From contig CAMNHM010000037.1 in the NCBI GenBank assembly GCA_946539475.1, forward strand, positions 1 to 20,137: a DNA stretch of 20,137 nucleotides, given 5' to 3'. Positions 221 through 20,045 of this stretch are shown piece by piece. Made by a program: the position numbers and the translations under genes. The first letter of the stretch is position 1; every line of letters begins with the position of its first letter. The notes beneath the pieces were generated by a model. That model searched no databases, was not told the origin of the DNA, and worked only from the letters and a program-made list of their open reading frames with translations. Source of the DNA: an uncultured Prevotellaceae bacterium. Its GTDB lineage: Bacteria; Bacteroidota; Bacteroidia; Bacteroidales; Bacteroidaceae.

Positions 221-1540
221 TTACTTGGAGTAGAGGGCGACGAGCGTCTCGTACTTCTCCTGCTTGCCGCTGACTAGCTTGGGCTCGCCAACCTTCTTGC
301 CGTACTCGTAGACCTGCTCGAAGGTGAGCTTGCCGTCCTCGAAGTCCTTGCCGAGCCCGGAGTCGAAGGATGCATAGCGCTCCTTCTTCATCTTGGGCAG
401 CTCGCTGTTCTCGAGGATGTCGGCAGCGTTCATCAGGGCGCGGGCCATTGCGTCCATACCGCTGATATGGGCGATGAAGAGGTCCTCGAGGTCGGTGGAG
501 TTACGACGGATCTTGGCGTCGAAGTTGGTGCCGCCGTTGCCAAGTCCTCCGTTGCGGATGATCTCGAGCATGGCCTGCGTCAGCTCATAGTTGTCGATGG
601 GGAACTGGTCGGTGTCCCATCCGTTCTGGGCGTCGCCGCGGTTGGCGTCGATGCTTCCGAGCATGCCTGCGTCGACGGCGCATGCTAGCTCATGCTCGAA
701 GGTGTGTCCGGCCAGCGTGGCGTGGTTCACCTCGATATTCACCTTGAAGTCCTTGTCGAGGCCGTGGGCGCGGAGGAATCCGATGACGGTCTCGGTATCG
801 ACGTCGTACTGGTGCTTGGTGGGCTCCATGGGCTTCGGCTCGATGAGGAAGGTGCCGGTGAATCCCTTTGCGCGGGCGTAGTCGCGGGCCATTCGGAGCA
901 TCATTGCCATGTGCTCCTTCTCGCGCTTCTGGTCGGTGTTGAGGAGGCTCATGTAGCCCTCGCGTCCGCCCCAGAACACGTAGTTGGAGCCGCCGAGCTT
1001 TATGGTGGCGTCGATGGCGTTCTTGATCTGTACGATGGCACGCGATACGACATCGAACTCAGGATTGGTCGAGGCACCGTTCATGTAGCGGGCGTTGCCG
1101 AAGACGTTGGCCGTGCCCCAGAGCAGCTTGATGTTGGGATACTGCTTCATCTTCTCGAGGGCATAGTCGGTGATTTCCTTCATGCGAGCCTCGTACTCCT
1201 CGACGGTGTCGCCCTCCTCGACGAGGTCGACATCGTGGAAGCAGAAATACTCGATGCCGAGCTTGTCCATGAACTCGAAGCCGGCGTCCATCTTCTGCTT
1301 GGCCTTCGTAAGGGCATCGTCGGCCTGTGCCCACTCATAGCAGCGGGTCTGGCCACCGAACTGGTCGCTGGAGGCTGCTCCCAGTGTGTGCCACCAGGCC
1401 ATAGCGAACTTCAGCCAGTCCTTCATCTTCTTTCCCATGACGACCTTCTCGGGCTCGTAGTAGTGGAAAGCCATCACGTTCTTACTGTCCTTTCCCTCGA
1501 AAGGAATCTTACCGGTAAACGGAAAATACTCTTTTGCCAT
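221..1540 (-). CDS. xylA: xylose isomerase
   Basis: This 439-residue protein interconverts D-xylose and D-xylulose in the cytoplasm, the first step of the isomerase pathway. The TIM-barrel active site can be read directly: the FHDVD motif with catalytic His102 and Asp105, Glu234 and Lys236 in IEPKP, Glu270 and His273 in IEVNH, and metal ligands Asp298, Asp309 and Asp311. Trp-Trp-His at 49-51 and FWGGREGY at 189-196 are typical of the long class II isomerases. Length is normal for that class. The gene follows xylB on the same strand with a 59-bp gap containing a long A-run (as read on the minus strand) just before the ATG, and no clear Shine-Dalgarno. The two genes therefore probably share one transcript. 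Nothing is missing or broken. Confidence 0.97.
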   Translation of the reverse strand: MAKEYFPFTGKIPFEGKDSKNVMAFHYYEPEKVVMGKKMKDWLKFAMAWWHTLGAASSDQFGGQTRCYEWAQADDALTKAKQKMDAGFEFMDKLGIEYFCFHDVDLVEEGDTVEEYEARMKEITDYALEKMKQYPNIKLLWGTANVFGNARYMNGASTNPEFDVVSRAIVQIKNAIDATIKLGGSNYVFWGGREGYMSLLNTDQKREKEHMAMMLRMARDYARAKGFTGTFLIEPKPMEPTKHQYDVDTETVIGFLRAHGLDKDFKVNIEVNHATLAGHTFEHELACAVDAGMLGSIDANRGDAQNGWDTDQFPIDNYELTQAMLEIIRNGGLGNGGTNFDAKIRRNSTDLEDLFIAHISGMDAMARALMNAADILENSELPKMKKERYASFDSGLGKDFEDGKLTFEQVYEYGKKVGEPKLVSGKQEKYETLVALYSK

Positions 1541-1599
1541 AATTGCTGTGTCTTTTTTTTTTATGGATTGATAATTGGGGTTGTTGCTTTTATTTGTTG

Positions 1600-3138
1600 T
1601 TACAGTGCCTTCTCAAGGGTTTCCTTCCAGCGGGCGTAGGCGGCGGCATAGGCCTCGCGGTCGGCCTGGCGGGGCTCGATGACCTGTAGCTTCTCGAGCG
1701 ATGCGAACGCCTCGTTGTGGTCGGCATAGATGCCTGCTCCCATGCCTGCGCCCTTTGCTGCTCCCACGGAGCCGTCGGTCTCGTAGAGCTCGATGGTGGC
1801 TCCGCTGACGCCTGCCAGGGTGTCGCGGAAGAGTGGCGAGAGGAACATGTTGGCTTTGCCGGCATGAATTTTCTGGATGTCCATACCCATCTGCTGCATG
1901 ATCTCCATTCCATAGCAGAAGGAGAAGACGATGCCCTCCTGAGCTGCCCGCACGAGGTGGGCGCGATGGTGCTTGTTGAAGTTCAGTCCCTGGATGCTGC
2001 ATCCCAGCTCCTTGTTCTGCAGCACGCGCTCTGCACCGTTGCCGAAGGGCATGACGACTACGCCGTCGCTGCCGATGGGAGCCTGCGCTGCGAGGTCGTT
2101 CATCTCGGCATAGCCCATATCGAAGGTCACGTTACGATGCATCCAGGCGTTGAGGATACCCGTGCCGTTGATGCAGAGGAGGACGCCGAGGCGGGTTGAG
2201 AGTTGAGAGTCCTTCGCAAGCGAAGCGTCCATTTGGGCTGAGCGGAGAGTTGTGAGATGGTTGACGTGTGCGAAGGTGTTCACACGGCTCTTCGTGTCGT
2301 AGTTCACCTCGCCGAGCACGCCGTAGACGACGCCGCTGGTGCCTGCCGTAGCAGCTATCTCGCCCGGTTCGAAGACATTCAGCGAGAGGGCGTTGTTGGG
2401 CTGGTCGCCACCACGATAGGTGATCGGCGTGCCTGCTTTCAGCCCGAGCTCCTTGGCTGCTGCTTCGCTGACGACGCTCTGCTCGGAGAATGTGGGTACG
2501 ATGTCGGGGATGAACGTTGCGGGAATGCCGTAGTAGTCGAGCAGGAACTGCGCCACGCTGTTCTCCTTGAAGTCCCAGAACATTCCCTCGGAGAGTCCGC
2601 TGACGGTGGTGTTGGCGACGCCGCTCATGCGCATCGCCATATAGTCGCCGGGAAGCATCACCTTGTAGATCTTGTCGAACACTTCGGGCTCGTTCTCTTT
2701 CACCCATGCCAGCTTGGCTGCGGTGAAGTTGCCCGGTGAGTTGAGCAGATGGCTCAGGCACTTCTCGGCTCCCAATGCCTGGAAGGCTCGCTCGCCATAG
2801 GGCACGGCGCGGGAGTCGCACCAGATGATGGCGGGCCGCAGCGGCTGTAGGTTCTTGTCGACGCACACCAGTCCGTGCATCTGGTAAGAGATTCCGATGG
2901 CCACGATGTCGTCGCCTTTCACCTGCGCCTCAGCCATGATTTTCTGCAGTGCCTGCTTGGCATACTGCCACCACGACTCGGGCTCTTGTTCAGCCCATCC
3001 TGCCTTCACGGCGAGGATTGGAGCCTCCTTCTCAGGGAAGAAGGCTGAAGACACGCACTTGCCGCTATCGGCATTGACCAGCGACGCCTTGACAGACGAG
3101 CTGCCGACATCGAATCCTAATAAATATCTTGCTACCAT
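1600..3138 (-). CDS. xylB: xylulokinase (with repeat-derived in-frame insertion)
   Basis: This FGGY-family kinase phosphorylates D-xylulose to xylulose 5-phosphate, completing entry of xylose into the pentose phosphate pathway. The first actin-like domain opens with the phosphate-binding loop GFDVGSSSVK (Asp10). The catalytic base is Asp245 in GGDQP. The second domain has GVLLCINGTG and a C-terminal GAAKGAGMGAG loop. At 512 residues it is slightly long. The excess is explained by residues about 295-315, between the conserved AHVNH and RLGVLL blocks, where about 18 extra residues are encoded by a heptamer-repeat/palindrome segment (see 2198-2251). The frame stays open and all catalytic motifs remain, so the enzyme may still work. 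The ATG at 3136-3138 is preceded by an A-rich leader. It is first in the xylB-xylA operon. Confidence 0.95.
   Translation of the reverse strand: MVARYLLGFDVGSSSVKASLVNADSGKCVSSAFFPEKEAPILAVKAGWAEQEPESWWQYAKQALQKIMAEAQVKGDDIVAIGISYQMHGLVCVDKNLQPLRPAIIWCDSRAVPYGERAFQALGAEKCLSHLLNSPGNFTAAKLAWVKENEPEVFDKIYKVMLPGDYMAMRMSGVANTTVSGLSEGMFWDFKENSVAQFLLDYYGIPATFIPDIVPTFSEQSVVSEAAAKELGLKAGTPITYRGGDQPNNALSLNVFEPGEIAATAGTSGVVYGVLGEVNYDTKSRVNTFAHVNHLTTLRSAQMDASLAKDSQLSTRLGVLLCINGTGILNAWMHRNVTFDMGYAEMNDLAAQAPIGSDGVVVMPFGNGAERVLQNKELGCSIQGLNFNKHHRAHLVRAAQEGIVFSFCYGMEIMQQMGMDIQKIHAGKANMFLSPLFRDTLAGVSGATIELYETDGSVGAAKGAGMGAGIYADHNEAFASLEKLQVIEPRQADREAYAAAYARWKETLEKAL
2198..2251. repeat. 54-bp repeat element inserted in frame within xylB
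   Basis: On the plus strand, 7-bp units GAGAGTT/GAGAGTC lie at 2198-2204 and 2205-2211, and another GAGAGTT lies at 2245-2251. They flank a 33-bp core containing the palindrome CTTCGC-AA-GCGAAG (2212-2225). The span is 54 bp, an exact multiple of three, and encodes roughly the residues between Thr297 and Leu314 of XylB. FGGY kinases have only a short loop here between the conserved AHVNH and RLGVLL blocks. Tandem heptamers and a hairpin are features of intergenic repeats, not of kinase coding sequence. The exact boundaries are inferred. Confidence 0.6.
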
Positions 3139-3196
3139 AATCGATTTGTTTTTTTTTACGGTTTTGAACTATTCACAATATAATACGTTCAAGACA

Positions 3197-3225
3197 CAAA
3201 TTTCCCTAATTATTTTAGAAACAAA
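3197..3225 (-). promoter_or_regulatory. weak candidate promoter for xylBA
   Basis: Read on the minus strand, TTTG (3222-3225) is followed after 17 nt by GAAATTTG (3197-3204), a 7/8 match to the Bacteroidetes -7 box TAnnTTTG. The spacer is shorter than the 20 nt at the better promoters in this window, so this is tentative. No operator for a xylose regulator could be identified. The 5' leader to xylB would be about 50-60 nt and A-rich. Confidence 0.3.
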
Positions 3226-3281
3226 TTTGGCTGTGACTCGATATTTTTTTAGAAACTAATTGGCACTAATTAAGAAAAATT
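3217..3281 (+). repeat. two degenerate copies of a ~32-bp AT-rich repeat (plus orientation)
   Basis: TTAGAAACAAATTTGGC (from 3215) and TTAGAAACTAATTGGC (from 3249) begin two degenerate tandem copies. The second continues as ACTAATTAAGAAAAATT and resembles the reverse complement of the units at 3317-3353 and 3395-3431. The region upstream of xylB is therefore an inverted arrangement of one repeat family. Copy boundaries are approximate. Confidence 0.5.
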
Positions 3282-3288
3282 ATTAAGC

Positions 3289-3453
3289 TGTCGGGTGCAG
3301 CACTCCCGCGCGTTAAAAGAAAATTTTCCAGAATTAGTGCTCATTTGTTTCCTATTTTTTATTGTGTCGGCTGCCACGCTCTTCGCACGAAAAAAGAAAA
3401 ATTTTCCAGAATTTGTGCTCATTAGTTTCCTAAAGAGCTCATTAGTTTTCCCT
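3289..3453 (-). repeat. 76-bp tandem duplication plus a truncated third copy
   Basis: Two units start with TGTCGG at 3289 and 3365, a 76-bp period. Each has a GC-rich first part and then an A-rich/ATTTTCCAGAATT...GTGCTCATT...GTTTCCTA block (3317-3353 and 3395-3431). A third shortened copy, AGCTCATTAGTTTTCC, follows at 3435-3450. It fills the gap between the stop codon of the small gene at 3469 and the xylB upstream region. With 3139-3288 this accounts for the 330-bp non-coding stretch, where I see no gene. Confidence 0.65.
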
Positions 3454-3468
3454 TTTTCGGTTGAGCAG

Positions 3469-3735
3469 TTACGACTCGTCGAAGACGGCTGCCAACTGGC
3501 GCGCAGCCTTTGGCTTCAGCCGATAGCATCCACGCTTGCCGGTATGCTCGATGATGGCGTCCGCCCTGCGCGAACGGCTCAGGAGATAGTACTGAGTATA
3601 CCGATGGATCTTATCGAACTCGGGCTGATAAAAAAGCGTACAATAATGGTTGTAGACGTGCTTGGCCAGCTTTTTCACGCTGATGCCACGCCCGCCTACA
3701 TCCAATAATATTCTTAAAATCTGCTGTTCGTACAA
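3469..3735 (-). CDS. small conserved Bacteroidetes protein, winged-helix-like
   Basis: This 88-residue basic protein (MYEQQILRILLDVG, then GISVKKLAKHVYN and a terminal RGCYRLKP block) matches, from memory, a small family found only in Bacteroidetes. The pattern of a helix, a helix-turn-helix-like GISVKKLAKHV segment and a C-terminal RGxYRL strand suggests a winged-helix fold, so DNA binding is plausible but unproven. There is no ATG. The only sensible start is TTG at 3733-3735, six bases after the TAA of the upstream winged-helix gene and in the same frame. Translation is therefore probably coupled to that gene. No signal peptide or membrane segment is seen. The function is unknown. Confidence 0.75.
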   Translation of the reverse strand: MYEQQILRILLDVGGRGISVKKLAKHVYNHYCTLFYQPEFDKIHRYTQYYLLSRSRRADAIIEHTGKRGCYRLKPKAARQLAAVFDES

Positions 3736-6190: not shown

Positions 6191-6223
6191 AAATAGTAAA
6201 TAGTAAAACCGTAAATAGTAAAT
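6191..6223 (+). repeat. AAATAGT heptamer repeat between gcvT and gcvH
   Basis: The spacer consists of AAATAGT units, two intact in tandem and then one after a short interruption (AAATAGTAAATAGTAAAAC, CGTAAATAGTAAATC). Each unit contains TAG, and unit junctions create TAA, so all three frames are closed. The reverse complement ACTATTT has no G. Confidence 0.85.
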
Positions 6224-6227
6224 CATT

Positions 6228-6608
6228 ATGTCAAAAGTAATTGAAGGACTCTACTATTCAGAGTCGCACGAGTATGTGAAAGTGGAAGGTGATTTCGGAT
6301 TCATCGGTATCACCGACTATGCCCAGCATGCACTGGGCAACGTGGTTTACGTCGATCTGCCCGAGGTGGACGACGAGGTGGAAGCAGGCGAAGAGTTTGG
6401 CGCCGTAGAGAGCGTGAAAGCCGCCAGCGACATTATATCGCCCGTCAGCGGAACGGTAGTGGAAGTGAACGAGGCCCTCGACGACCAGCCTGAGCTGCTC
6501 AACCAGGACGCCTACGAGAACTGGATCATCAAGGTGGAGCTGAGCGACAAGACTGAGCTCGACAACCTGATGGATGCCAAGGCTTACGAAGAATTCTGCA
6601 ACAAATAG
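6228..6608 (+). CDS. gcvH: glycine cleavage system H protein
   Basis: This 126-residue lipoyl carrier shuttles the aminomethyl intermediate between the P, T and L proteins. The lipoylation site is Lys64 in GAVESVKAASD. The flanking sandwich strands (SHEYVKVEG and GITDYAQHALGNVVYVDLP on the N side, SPVSGTVVEVNEAL after) are canonical and the length is standard. The lipoate ligase at the head of the operon is the probable modifying enzyme. The TAG stop lies inside the first unit of an AAATAGT array that runs to the start codon of gcvPA. Intact. Confidence 0.97.
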   Translation: MSKVIEGLYYSESHEYVKVEGDFGFIGITDYAQHALGNVVYVDLPEVDDEVEAGEEFGAVESVKAASDIISPVSGTVVEVNEALDDQPELLNQDAYENWIIKVELSDKTELDNLMDAKAYEEFCNK

Positions 6609-6634
6609 TAAATCGTAAATAGTAAATAGTAAAT
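6603..6634 (+). repeat. AAATAGT heptamer repeat from the gcvH stop to the gcvPA start
   Basis: AAATAGT-AAATCGT-AAATAGT-AAATAGT-AAATG: the first unit supplies the TAG stop of gcvH (6606-6608) and the last partial unit supplies the A and T of the gcvPA ATG (6633-6635). The intergenic spacer is made only of repeat. Confidence 0.9.
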
Positions 6635-11386: not shown

Positions 11387-12520
11387 TCAGAAAGGTTTAT
11401 CGGCCCAGGCAATGACGGGCGTTCCCTGCTTGTCGAAGCGGATGGGAAGCCATAGATGCAGGCTCTGGGCGAGATGGCGGGGATTCCAGATGTCGGCCAT
11501 GAACAGCAGCTGCGAACCGCGCTGAAGAATATAGGTACCCTGTGCACCGAACGTCTTGTTGGCAGGCATGTCCTGATAGCCTGTAGCCGTGCCGACAAAC
11601 GGTGAGGGCAGCTGTTCCCACGGCCCCCAGATACTCTTCGAGCGGAACATACGAGCCTCGTTGGGCGCCCAGCCTGTACACCCCGAGCAGATGAGCCAAT
11701 AGGTACCATTACGGCGGAAGATGCAAGGAGCCTCGTTCTGTCCGCCAGGAACGACCATCACGAAGCGCCCCGTGAAGTCGAGGTAGTCGTCGGTGAGCTC
11801 GCTGATGAGCAGCGTCAGGTTCTCCTGCGATGAGGTGATATGGTACGCCTTACCGTCGTCGTCGACGAAAACGGTCATGTCGCGGCTCATCTGACCCTCC
11901 TTCATGTCTCGCCAGAGGTACATGCCCTTCTCCACCTCGCGCCGCCAGTCCGGCGTCCACCAGTCCTTCCACTTCGAGGCATCCGTCTGACGGGCAGCCT
12001 CACGCTCAGCCTCAGTCATGTTGAAGGGCCACTGTCCGGCATGCAGGCGAGTGCTGCGGATGAAGCGGAAGGGCCCCGTAGGCTTCTCGCTCTCGGCAAT
12101 GCCCACACGGGCTGCTTCATAGCCGCGACCACGTAGCTCAAGATGGAATAGCATGACGAAGCGCTGCGTCTTCTCGCACCAAAGCACCTTCGGACGCTCC
12201 ATGATGCACCCGCGCTCAATGTCGCTGCCGGGCTCAGTGCTCACGCTCAGCGCGACGCCCTCGTTCTTCCACTGTCGCATGTCGGTGGAGGAATAGACGC
12301 TGACGCCCGTGTCCATCGAGTATCCACGCTCAGGGCGCTGCTCGCCATACCAGTAGTACCTGCCGTCATACTCGATGATACAGCCCCCATGGGCATTGAT
12401 ATGTCGGCCGTTGGTGTCCAGCCACGGCTGTCCGTTCACCAGCTGTGCCTGAGCTGGCAGAATCATCAGACAAAGCATAGCGATAAGAATCGTCTTCAAG
12501 GTACAGTCATTGTGTCTCAT
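11387..12520 (-). CDS. secreted glycoside hydrolase, family 43-like
   Basis: This 377-residue protein has a signal peptide ending at about residue 25 (LMILPAQA) and a five-bladed beta-propeller hydrolase pattern. NAHGGCIIEYDGRYYWYGE is the first-blade motif seen in GH43 subfamilies such as 24 and 34 (galactan or arabinose-type substrates). DMTVFVDDDGKAYH contains the acidic residue near Asp214. GGQNEAPCIF carries the probable acid Glu263. It probably trims exposed galactose or arabinose side chains in the periplasm or outside the cell; the exact substrate is unknown. ATG at 12518-12520 is chosen because a longer frame would run into the tRNA-Leu gene 42 bp upstream. No separate promoter is evident, so it may be read through from the tRNA. 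Residues 234-347 are duplicated as a relic at 19704-20045. Confidence 0.85.
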   Translation of the reverse strand: MRHNDCTLKTILIAMLCLMILPAQAQLVNGQPWLDTNGRHINAHGGCIIEYDGRYYWYGEQRPERGYSMDTGVSVYSSTDMRQWKNEGVALSVSTEPGSDIERGCIMERPKVLWCEKTQRFVMLFHLELRGRGYEAARVGIAESEKPTGPFRFIRSTRLHAGQWPFNMTEAEREAARQTDASKWKDWWTPDWRREVEKGMYLWRDMKEGQMSRDMTVFVDDDGKAYHITSSQENLTLLISELTDDYLDFTGRFVMVVPGGQNEAPCIFRRNGTYWLICSGCTGWAPNEARMFRSKSIWGPWEQLPSPFVGTATGYQDMPANKTFGAQGTYILQRGSQLLFMADIWNPRHLAQSLHLWLPIRFDKQGTPVIAWADKPF

Positions 12521-19703: not shown

Positions 19704-20045
19704 AACCTCACCCTGCTCGTCAGCGAGCTCACCGACGACTACCTCGACTTCACTGGACGCTACAACATGATTGCTCCCGGCGGACAGAATGAGGCACCCT
19801 GCATCTTCAAGCGCGGCAAGGACTACTGGCTCATCTGCTCCGGATGCACAGGCTGGGCACCCAACGAAGCCCGCATGTTCCACTCGCGCAGCATCTGGAG
19901 ACCCTGGCAGCAGCTGCCCTCGCCCTTCGTAGGCACTGCCACGGGCTATCAGGACATGCCTGCCAACAAGACCTTCGGCGCACAGGGCACTTATATCCTC
20001 CCTCTGGGCGACCAGTGGATGTTCATGGCCGACGTCTGGAATCCA
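19704..20045 (+). pseudogene. internal fragment of a second GH43-like gene
   Basis: These 114 codons, in a frame different from the upstream uvrA-like gene, align without gaps to residues 234-347 of the intact GH43-like protein at 11387-12520. I count 19 differences, about 83% identity. They include GGQNEAPCIF with the probable catalytic Glu and CTGWAPNEARMF. There is no start codon, signal peptide or first half, since position 19698 is the last base of the uvrA-like stop. After WNP the similarity ends abruptly. No stop codon interrupts the fragment. It is a both-ends-truncated relic of a paralogue, in the opposite orientation to the intact copy. An assembly join cannot be excluded. Confidence 0.85.

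Follow-up and report, generated by a model that had tools for sequence, protein, structure and literature searches.

Palindromic repeats that sit in frame inside protein-coding genes are on record in Rickettsia and in several other, mainly proteobacterial, species, as far as the accounts in PMC3733652 and PMC10969869 extend. The Rickettsia palindromic elements (RPEs) are described as small palindromic repeats of about 150 bp, carried in frame by many unrelated genes (PMC10969869), and two of them, RPE-4 and RPE-6, are given as CGTC repeats (PMC3733652). Intragenic REPs belong, in the latter description, to the GTAG and CGTC superfamilies of 20–40 bp palindromes with variable stems, mostly intergenic, some of which lie in genes that include uvrA and tRNA synthetases (PMC3733652). 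The CGTC repeats are portrayed there as lacking an adjacent transposase and as consisting of an unpaired CGTC (TGTC/CCTC) tag and one stem of 8–9 bp with a loop of 4–5 nt; in the main text of that paper, the word 'Prevotella' has no occurrence and 'bacteroid' has one (PMC3733652). Short direct repeats form a separate body of work: TAACTGA arrays are reported as head-to-tail 7-bp units, mostly intergenic, in genomes that include five Bacteroidetes, with some arrays in ORFs, and the account at hand places these genic arrays for the most part at protein termini or within hypothetical proteins (PMC4679880).

The window analysed here, a whole stretch of 20,137 nucleotides from an uncultured Prevotellaceae bacterium, contains xylB, whose product matched the xylulokinase profile TIGR01312 from position 1 to 479 of 481 (294 bits, E = 1.3e-87, profile search) and PDB entry 2itm (E = 6.5e-44). 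The TIGR01312 score was about equal to those of three core-free relatives (298–301 bits), and all four proteins lay under the curated cut-off of 380 bits. One loop of the protein, 21 residues long, is encoded by 63 nt (2194–2256) of repeat-derived sequence. This loop is made of two unrelated repeats, nested: a 33-bp core with two hairpins lies within a (CAACTCT)n heptamer array, in frame. The features are as follows.

1600..3138, minus strand: xylB, xylulokinase, 512 aa, the host gene of the repeats (ORF list; TIGR01312; PDB 2itm).
2194..2256, minus strand: repeat-filled loop, residues 295–315, LTTLRSAQMDASLAKDSQLST, flanked by FAHVNH and RLGVLLC (loop comparison with relatives).
2245..2256, minus strand: left remnant of the (CAACTCT)n heptamer array, coding strand CTCACAACTCTC (sequence and excision test).
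2212..2244, minus strand: 33-bp core, CGCTCAGCCCAAATGGACGCTTCGCTTGCGAAG, encoding RSAQMDASLAK, residues 299–309 (family alignment; limits from the excision test).
2226..2240, minus strand: core hairpin 1 (variable), decayed, with several positions unpaired (comparison with family alignments).
2212..2225, minus strand: core hairpin 2 (constant), CTTCGC-TT-GCGAAG, intact (family alignment, covariation, fold).
2194..2211, minus strand: right part of the heptamer array, GACTCTCAACTCTCAACC (excision test).

The earlier note on this DNA had reported GAGAGTT units on both sides of a CTTCGC/GCGAAG palindrome that kept the reading frame, all of which are present in the sequence. Its core limits (2212–2244) were exact, whereas its outer limits fell a few bases short of the full stretch; and the repeats are indeed inserted in frame, but as two unrelated nested repeats instead of the single element it proposed. 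The gain of about 18 residues that it gave comes out nearer to 16 (512 aa, where many short-loop relatives have 496). A 29-nt piece of the element (2210–2238) had no second copy within the window at up to 3 mismatches, with 0 expected from shuffles. At 90% identity, the window XylB clusters with one other protein (2 members on 2 contigs, of which 1 was examined), and an assembly error is an unlikely origin for the core. An AlphaFold model of XylB (30-row alignment) was set aside because its pLDDT was low (mean 52.8; 28–46 in blocks covering residues 281–340); from the variability of the loop and the gap in the 2itm alignment, we infer that it is surface-exposed. Elsewhere in the window, a 40-nt direct repeat lies upstream of xylB (copies 3315–3354 and 3393–3432, 90% identical), and two inverted stretches (11481–11821 and 19704–20044, 81–85% complementary) are probably two related genes on opposite strands.

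When the 33-bp core was removed in silico, the flanks fused into an in-phase heptamer array, CAACTCTC(G)ACTCTCAACTCTCAACC, and lag-7 identity stood at 0.80, versus 0.40 with the core present. Excision of the core gave the top lag-7 score among 81 positions tested, with offsets 0 and +1 tied. The empty-site peptide, HLTTLDSQLSTR, resembles that of the relative P0013 (HQLSTLNSQLSTR), and a core-free loop would read about HLTTLNSQLSTR; the first base of the right array part was probably A in the empty site. The simplest reading of these sequences is that the array came earlier and that the core would have entered it later. At two loci outside XylB (L084 and L087), cores lie between CCC- and GGG-rich arms that resemble one palindrome split by the core, so that unrelated repeats nest outside XylB too.

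The core pattern, CGCTCRRN{5,14}CGCTTYGCTTGCRAAG, matched 84 of 398 same-genus genomes, with a maximum of 24 copies per genome; the same pattern reversed, used as a control, had 0 matches in same-genus genomes, and the pattern itself matched 0 of 296 genomes in a phylum-wide draw. The recurrence of the core in other genomes that the earlier note had asked about is thereby borne out, with some copies in ORFs and two at clean gaps relative to homologues. A 21-base piece of the core, at up to 2 mismatches, was found in 18 of 299 genomes of the genus. An Rfam search of positions 1500–3500 returned nothing above family cut-offs, with two chance matches far under them. We assembled 52 distinct copies from the fetched loci and the window, a smaller set than the genus-wide pattern count; they span 29–36 bp, and 22 of them have a length that is a multiple of 3. 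In the family alignments, the stems are of 5 and 6 bp with loops of 3 and 2 nt, and there is no conserved tag. Compensatory variation marks the 5' stem (GACC/GGTC, GAGC/GCTC, GAAC/GTTC), and the 3' stem takes the form TTTGC/GCAAA or TTCGC/GCGAA.

Covariation was assessed in 15 equal-length copies from the family-pattern listing against 500 shuffles. Paired cells made up 98.8%, and 10 cells had changed on both sides; no shuffle reached either value. Two of the five measures were weak: pairs changed on both sides numbered 3, a value equalled or exceeded in 17/500 shuffles, and further pair types numbered 5, equalled or exceeded in 376/500. Shifting the stem partners lowered pairing to 33–40%. 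Single copies folded moderately (z = −2.23, the best of four), and the window copy folded no better than shuffles (z = 0.44), its first stem being decayed and hairpin 1 missing from its minimum-energy fold. A variant, GTACGCTTCGCTTGCGAAGAA, forms 33-bp head-to-tail copies at L088, L099, and L100 (genomes G173, G171, and G237, respectively) and is a tandem-forming relative of the core.

The dinucleotide AA follows directly 3' of the core in 50 of 52 distinct copies, against a background AA frequency of 6.1%. The two exceptions are one copy followed by TC and the window copy, followed by GA, which fits the rule only with one later A to G change. Empty sites were resolved for two genes, an esterase (L081) and an Rhs gene (L094). 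In the esterase, an in-frame core encoding RSALDASLAK lies between GTC and AAC; 120 of 120 homologues among the matches listed are without this peptide, and in all of them Asn directly follows the gap, so that AA would have stood there before insertion. In the Rhs gene, a core encoding RSALWDASLAK lies between ATG and AAC. A pattern search of 30 loci found 13 corresponding Rhs segments, of which 11 were uninterrupted, including a paralogue on the L094 contig, and 10 of these 11 had Asn beside ATG; L272 had a different long segment. The Pfam match of the L094 protein was under the cut-off (23 versus 27.9 bits). As AA lies in the Asn codon of empty relatives of both genes, insertion of the core appears to take place on the 5' side of AA and to leave no target duplication. 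The in-frame copies outside XylB are as follows.

L081: BD-FAE esterase, 30-bp core, AAC after it, at a clean gap relative to homologues.
L094: Rhs, 33-bp core, AAC after it, at a clean gap relative to the paralogue and others.
L113: GH35, 33-bp core, AAC/AAT after it, in a lengthened loop.
L093: CHC2 zinc-finger, primase-like, 33-bp core, AAC/AAT after it, in a long open frame.
L083 and L203: one gene in two genomes, 33-bp core, AAC/AAT after it, in a long open frame (L083 without a Pfam match).

Genic copies were located via open frames, so that their lengths show consistency and are not an independent test. They are read in two frames, as RSA..DASLAK and as PLGPKGRFACEE. The GH35 copy was rejected as a clean single insertion: its loop exceeds the common form by 18 residues, of which the core accounts for 11 only. 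A 20-aa segment was present in 106 of 120 GH35 homologues, versus 38 aa in L113, which 2 of them matched, and the remaining 12 (within P0241–P0360) carried other inserts of 29–41 aa; on this comparison, the core sits in a loop that looks to have been lengthened previously by something else. Among the GH35 inserts, YEKDNLASPS occurs once or twice over, making this a second hot loop besides that of XylB. Three further loci (L089, L183, and L198) were not scored as genic, as open frames overlap their cores only by upstream or opposite-strand reading. Copies at L191 and L199 measure 31 bp, not a multiple of 3, and the L191 copy falls close to where a short open frame ends. Going by open frames only, most of the remaining core copies seem to lie outside genes.

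We compared the XylB loop across 160 rows, comprising 120 proteins among the matches listed (the window's included) and 40 of 80 genome loci; the nearest genes come mainly from rumen Prevotella and Prevotellaceae assemblies. The loop varies in both length and sequence. A short loop, mostly of 5 residues (e.g. AADNT), is the commonest state (105/160), followed by heptamer-type peptides (QLSTLNSQTSNLKPQT and similar; 30/160) and a Gly/Pro-rich class (24/160). The alignment with related XylB proteins that the earlier note had proposed supports insertion for the core, which occurs in one row, the window protein, and is missing from the other 159; the heptamer array, on the other hand, replaces the usual short loop residues. 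Heptamer-loop DNA was examined for one relative, L007, and reads CAACTCTCAACTCTCAAACCTCAAACC... The Gly/Pro class (e.g. APSPLGKAGDGA) was named from peptides only, and its label, 'gpal', includes short loops like SGEGAT that are possibly not repeats. A back-translated palindrome pattern, at up to 3 mismatches, located CCCTCCCC-type repeats in 5 of 9 genomes.

On an XylB tree built from 99 of the 160 rows, with the loop left out and a short tree search, the loop type switches 12–13 times; on the starred branches alone fewer switches are forced, 3–4 per class. The window XylB is not part of the main heptamer clade (support 99) but groups with short-loop rows (weak support, 81), which makes its array a separate gain if that weak placement is right. 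One Gly/Pro-loop protein, P0006, is identical to three heptamer-loop proteins over the kept columns; it comes from a 2454-bp contig and may be a chimeric assembly. A core search in the 80 XylB loci (~1 Mb around XylB) matched the window alone, and the core was likewise absent from 780 kb of genome G005, so near relatives hold few copies.

Heptamer arrays are dispersed across these genomes: (CTCAACT)3, at up to 1 mismatch, was present in 10 of 12 genomes tested. Its reversed control carries no information, since reading this unit backwards yields the same heptamer. In-frame genic arrays were found in CysS and AlaRS (Pfam), and further sampled arrays were read as lying in UvrA-, imidazolonepropionase-, and RseP-like frames, among others. 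The AlaRS array occurs in G010 only, and 10 of 11 readable AlaRS loops are without it. Two candidates were set aside: HisS as a case of added length, where the array replaces a loop of similar length, and ThiL as a clean insertion, where relatives show similar native sequence; the ThiL array seems to have grown from that native sequence. In 780 kb of G005, taken from contigs picked for heptamer or palindrome matches (so that array density is biased), with genes called by a home-made codon-usage script, there were 37 period-7 arrays, 13 of them in called genes (two near N-termini). Periods 5, 6, 9, and 10 gave no arrays; period 8 gave 15, none in called genes, unlike period 7; period 11 gave 6, none genic; and period 12 gave 2, both genic. 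A third repeat class in G005, CCCTCCC...GGGAGG palindromes, is also genic. It lies in frame in IspF (L258:19215-19892), with 22 residues versus 1 of 5b8f between aligned blocks, and in an amylase-like gene (L234:9980-11893), together with a heptamer array. In the window itself, an AAATAGT heptamer array occurs at 6603–6634, between gcvH-like and gcvP-like genes (named by reading), and a similar heptamer stretch at 6191–6230, before gcvH.

The best overall explanation, to which we give a probability of about 0.8, is that a heptamer array replaced the XylB loop, that the core inserted into this array, and that the result is a selfish repeat that is tolerated. The array would have replaced the usual 4–5 residue loop; since 7 mod 3 = 1 and CAACTCT is stop-free, every frame of this strand gives a Leu/Asn/Ser/Gln/Thr peptide (LNSQLST). 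The core, as a non-autonomous, REP-like selfish repeat, would then have inserted into the array just 5' of AA, without target duplication. Because 33 bp is a multiple of 3 and stop-free, XylB gains 11 residues; its function was probably kept, and tolerance of insertions by the loop would account for the retention of the core.

An ordinary, fast-drifting kinase loop that became repetitive by chance would agree with the variable length and sequence of the XylB loop across relatives and with the heptamer-like coding in ThiL that is partly native, but the 33 bp belong to a dispersed family whose ends are fixed and whose stems covary, and RSA..DASLAK peptides also mark clean gaps in two other proteins, an unrelated esterase and an Rhs protein, which leaves this account hardly credible. 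It is improbable, too, that the heptamers arrived together with the core, in one step, as parts of a composite mobile element. Among 48 distinct copies (the window not among them), 4 do have a lag-7 array in the 28 nt directly upstream of the core, where lags 5, 6, 8, and 9 give 0–1 copies; the heptamer units of those four nevertheless differ (AATTCAC, AATGTTT, CTTAATT, GGGTGAA), no copy has a downstream array, 44 of 48 are without an upstream array at that threshold, nothing but the core was inserted in the esterase and in the Rhs gene, and the window flanks rejoin in phase upon excision. That the inserts are beneficial, for example as a new regulatory or binding loop for XylB, is very unlikely. 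The repeated appearance of different peptides in one loop across lineages (12–13 tree label changes) could mean selection for length, yet different lineages carry unrelated peptides, those from heptamers and core do no more than follow the repeat, and the short loop is commonest (105/160).

A possible, though doubtful, alternative is spread without a transposase, in which replication slippage would act together with ectopic recombination or gene conversion among existing repeats. The many units and lengths of the G005 arrays (37 in 780 kb) and the suggested local birth of the ThiL array from native sequence are in its favour, and no transposase linked to the core was found among the 10 Y1 matches of 14 core-bearing genomes. 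For the core, the fixed ends, the AA at 50/52 junctions, and the esterase and Rhs target sites without a prior repeat argue against it. Slippage and recombination remain a good account of the heptamer arrays themselves, for which local slippage is at least as likely. Under the preferred reading of array replacement followed by core insertion, we would tentatively envisage a trans-acting, HUH/IS200-605-like enzyme moving the core as a folded single strand. Profile PF01797 (Y1) matched 10 times across 8 of 14 core-bearing genomes, with 6 of these 8 above the cut-off, and not at all in the remaining 6, and no core-like hairpin, at up to 2 mismatches, was present in 10 loci of 2–3.3 kb around the matches; these negatives speak against a simple RAYT or IS200 link.

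More speculatively, a two-tier colonisation of protein genes may be active in rumen-type Prevotella. Frame-indifferent heptamer arrays would arise in surface loops; an AA-targeting double-hairpin repeat, mobilised in trans by a candidate single-strand transposase, would enter arrays, and genes directly, in multiples of three; and loops would be repeatedly refilled with unrelated peptides. If true, this would supply conserved enzymes with new loop sequence. The present case extends such in-frame repeats to relatives of a dominant rumen genus. It comprises nesting defined to the base, a probable insertion rule (at AA, without duplication), and a further class of repeat within genes, namely heptamer arrays that occupy tRNA synthetases and other conserved enzymes. 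Because sister species and empty sites are plentiful, it becomes testable whether small repeats make usable new protein loops. A title- and abstract-level literature search, covering few subscription journals, did not find the core or in-frame heptamer arrays in Prevotella enzymes.

Set beside the described systems, the 7-bp units resemble TAACTGA arrays in being head-to-tail and genome-dispersed (10/12 genomes; 37 arrays in G005), and differ from them, as those are portrayed, in that several lie inside conserved enzymes (AlaRS, HisS) and one array hosts a second repeat. Cyanobacterial STRR sequences are also heptamer direct repeats in head-to-tail arrays. IS200/IS605 elements have hairpins and insert as single strands beside a short fixed target, with no target duplication. 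The core shares with them the hairpins and an AA target without duplication (50/52; two empty sites; window copy GA), but it carries no transposase gene, and none adjoins it at the loci examined. The earlier note had named the RPEs as the nearest parallel, and the likeness holds: the core, too, is in frame in unrelated genes and missing from homologues (esterase, 120/120 listed; Rhs, 11/13; XylB, 159/160). Intragenic REPs are equally among the nearest parallels, however. By description, RPEs are ~150 bp in length, whereas the core measures 29–36 bp, has two short hairpins, and occurs in Prevotella relatives, and in the window it lies inside a heptamer array; it also lacks the CGTC tag by which RPE-4 and RPE-6 are described. 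Compared with CGTC REPs as published, it likewise has no adjacent transposase at the loci examined, but is tagless, with two stems of 5 and 6 bp and loops of 3 and 2 nt. GTAG is missing from its consensus, which ends in AAG before AA, and, in contrast to RAYT-linked REPs (REPtrons), no core lies beside the Y1 transposase matches (10 loci). In the broad sense, the core resembles a REP as a dispersed palindromic repeat with covarying stems, mostly outside long open frames as judged from the frames themselves. It works like a REP or an RPE, yet falls outside both the GTAG and the CGTC definitions.
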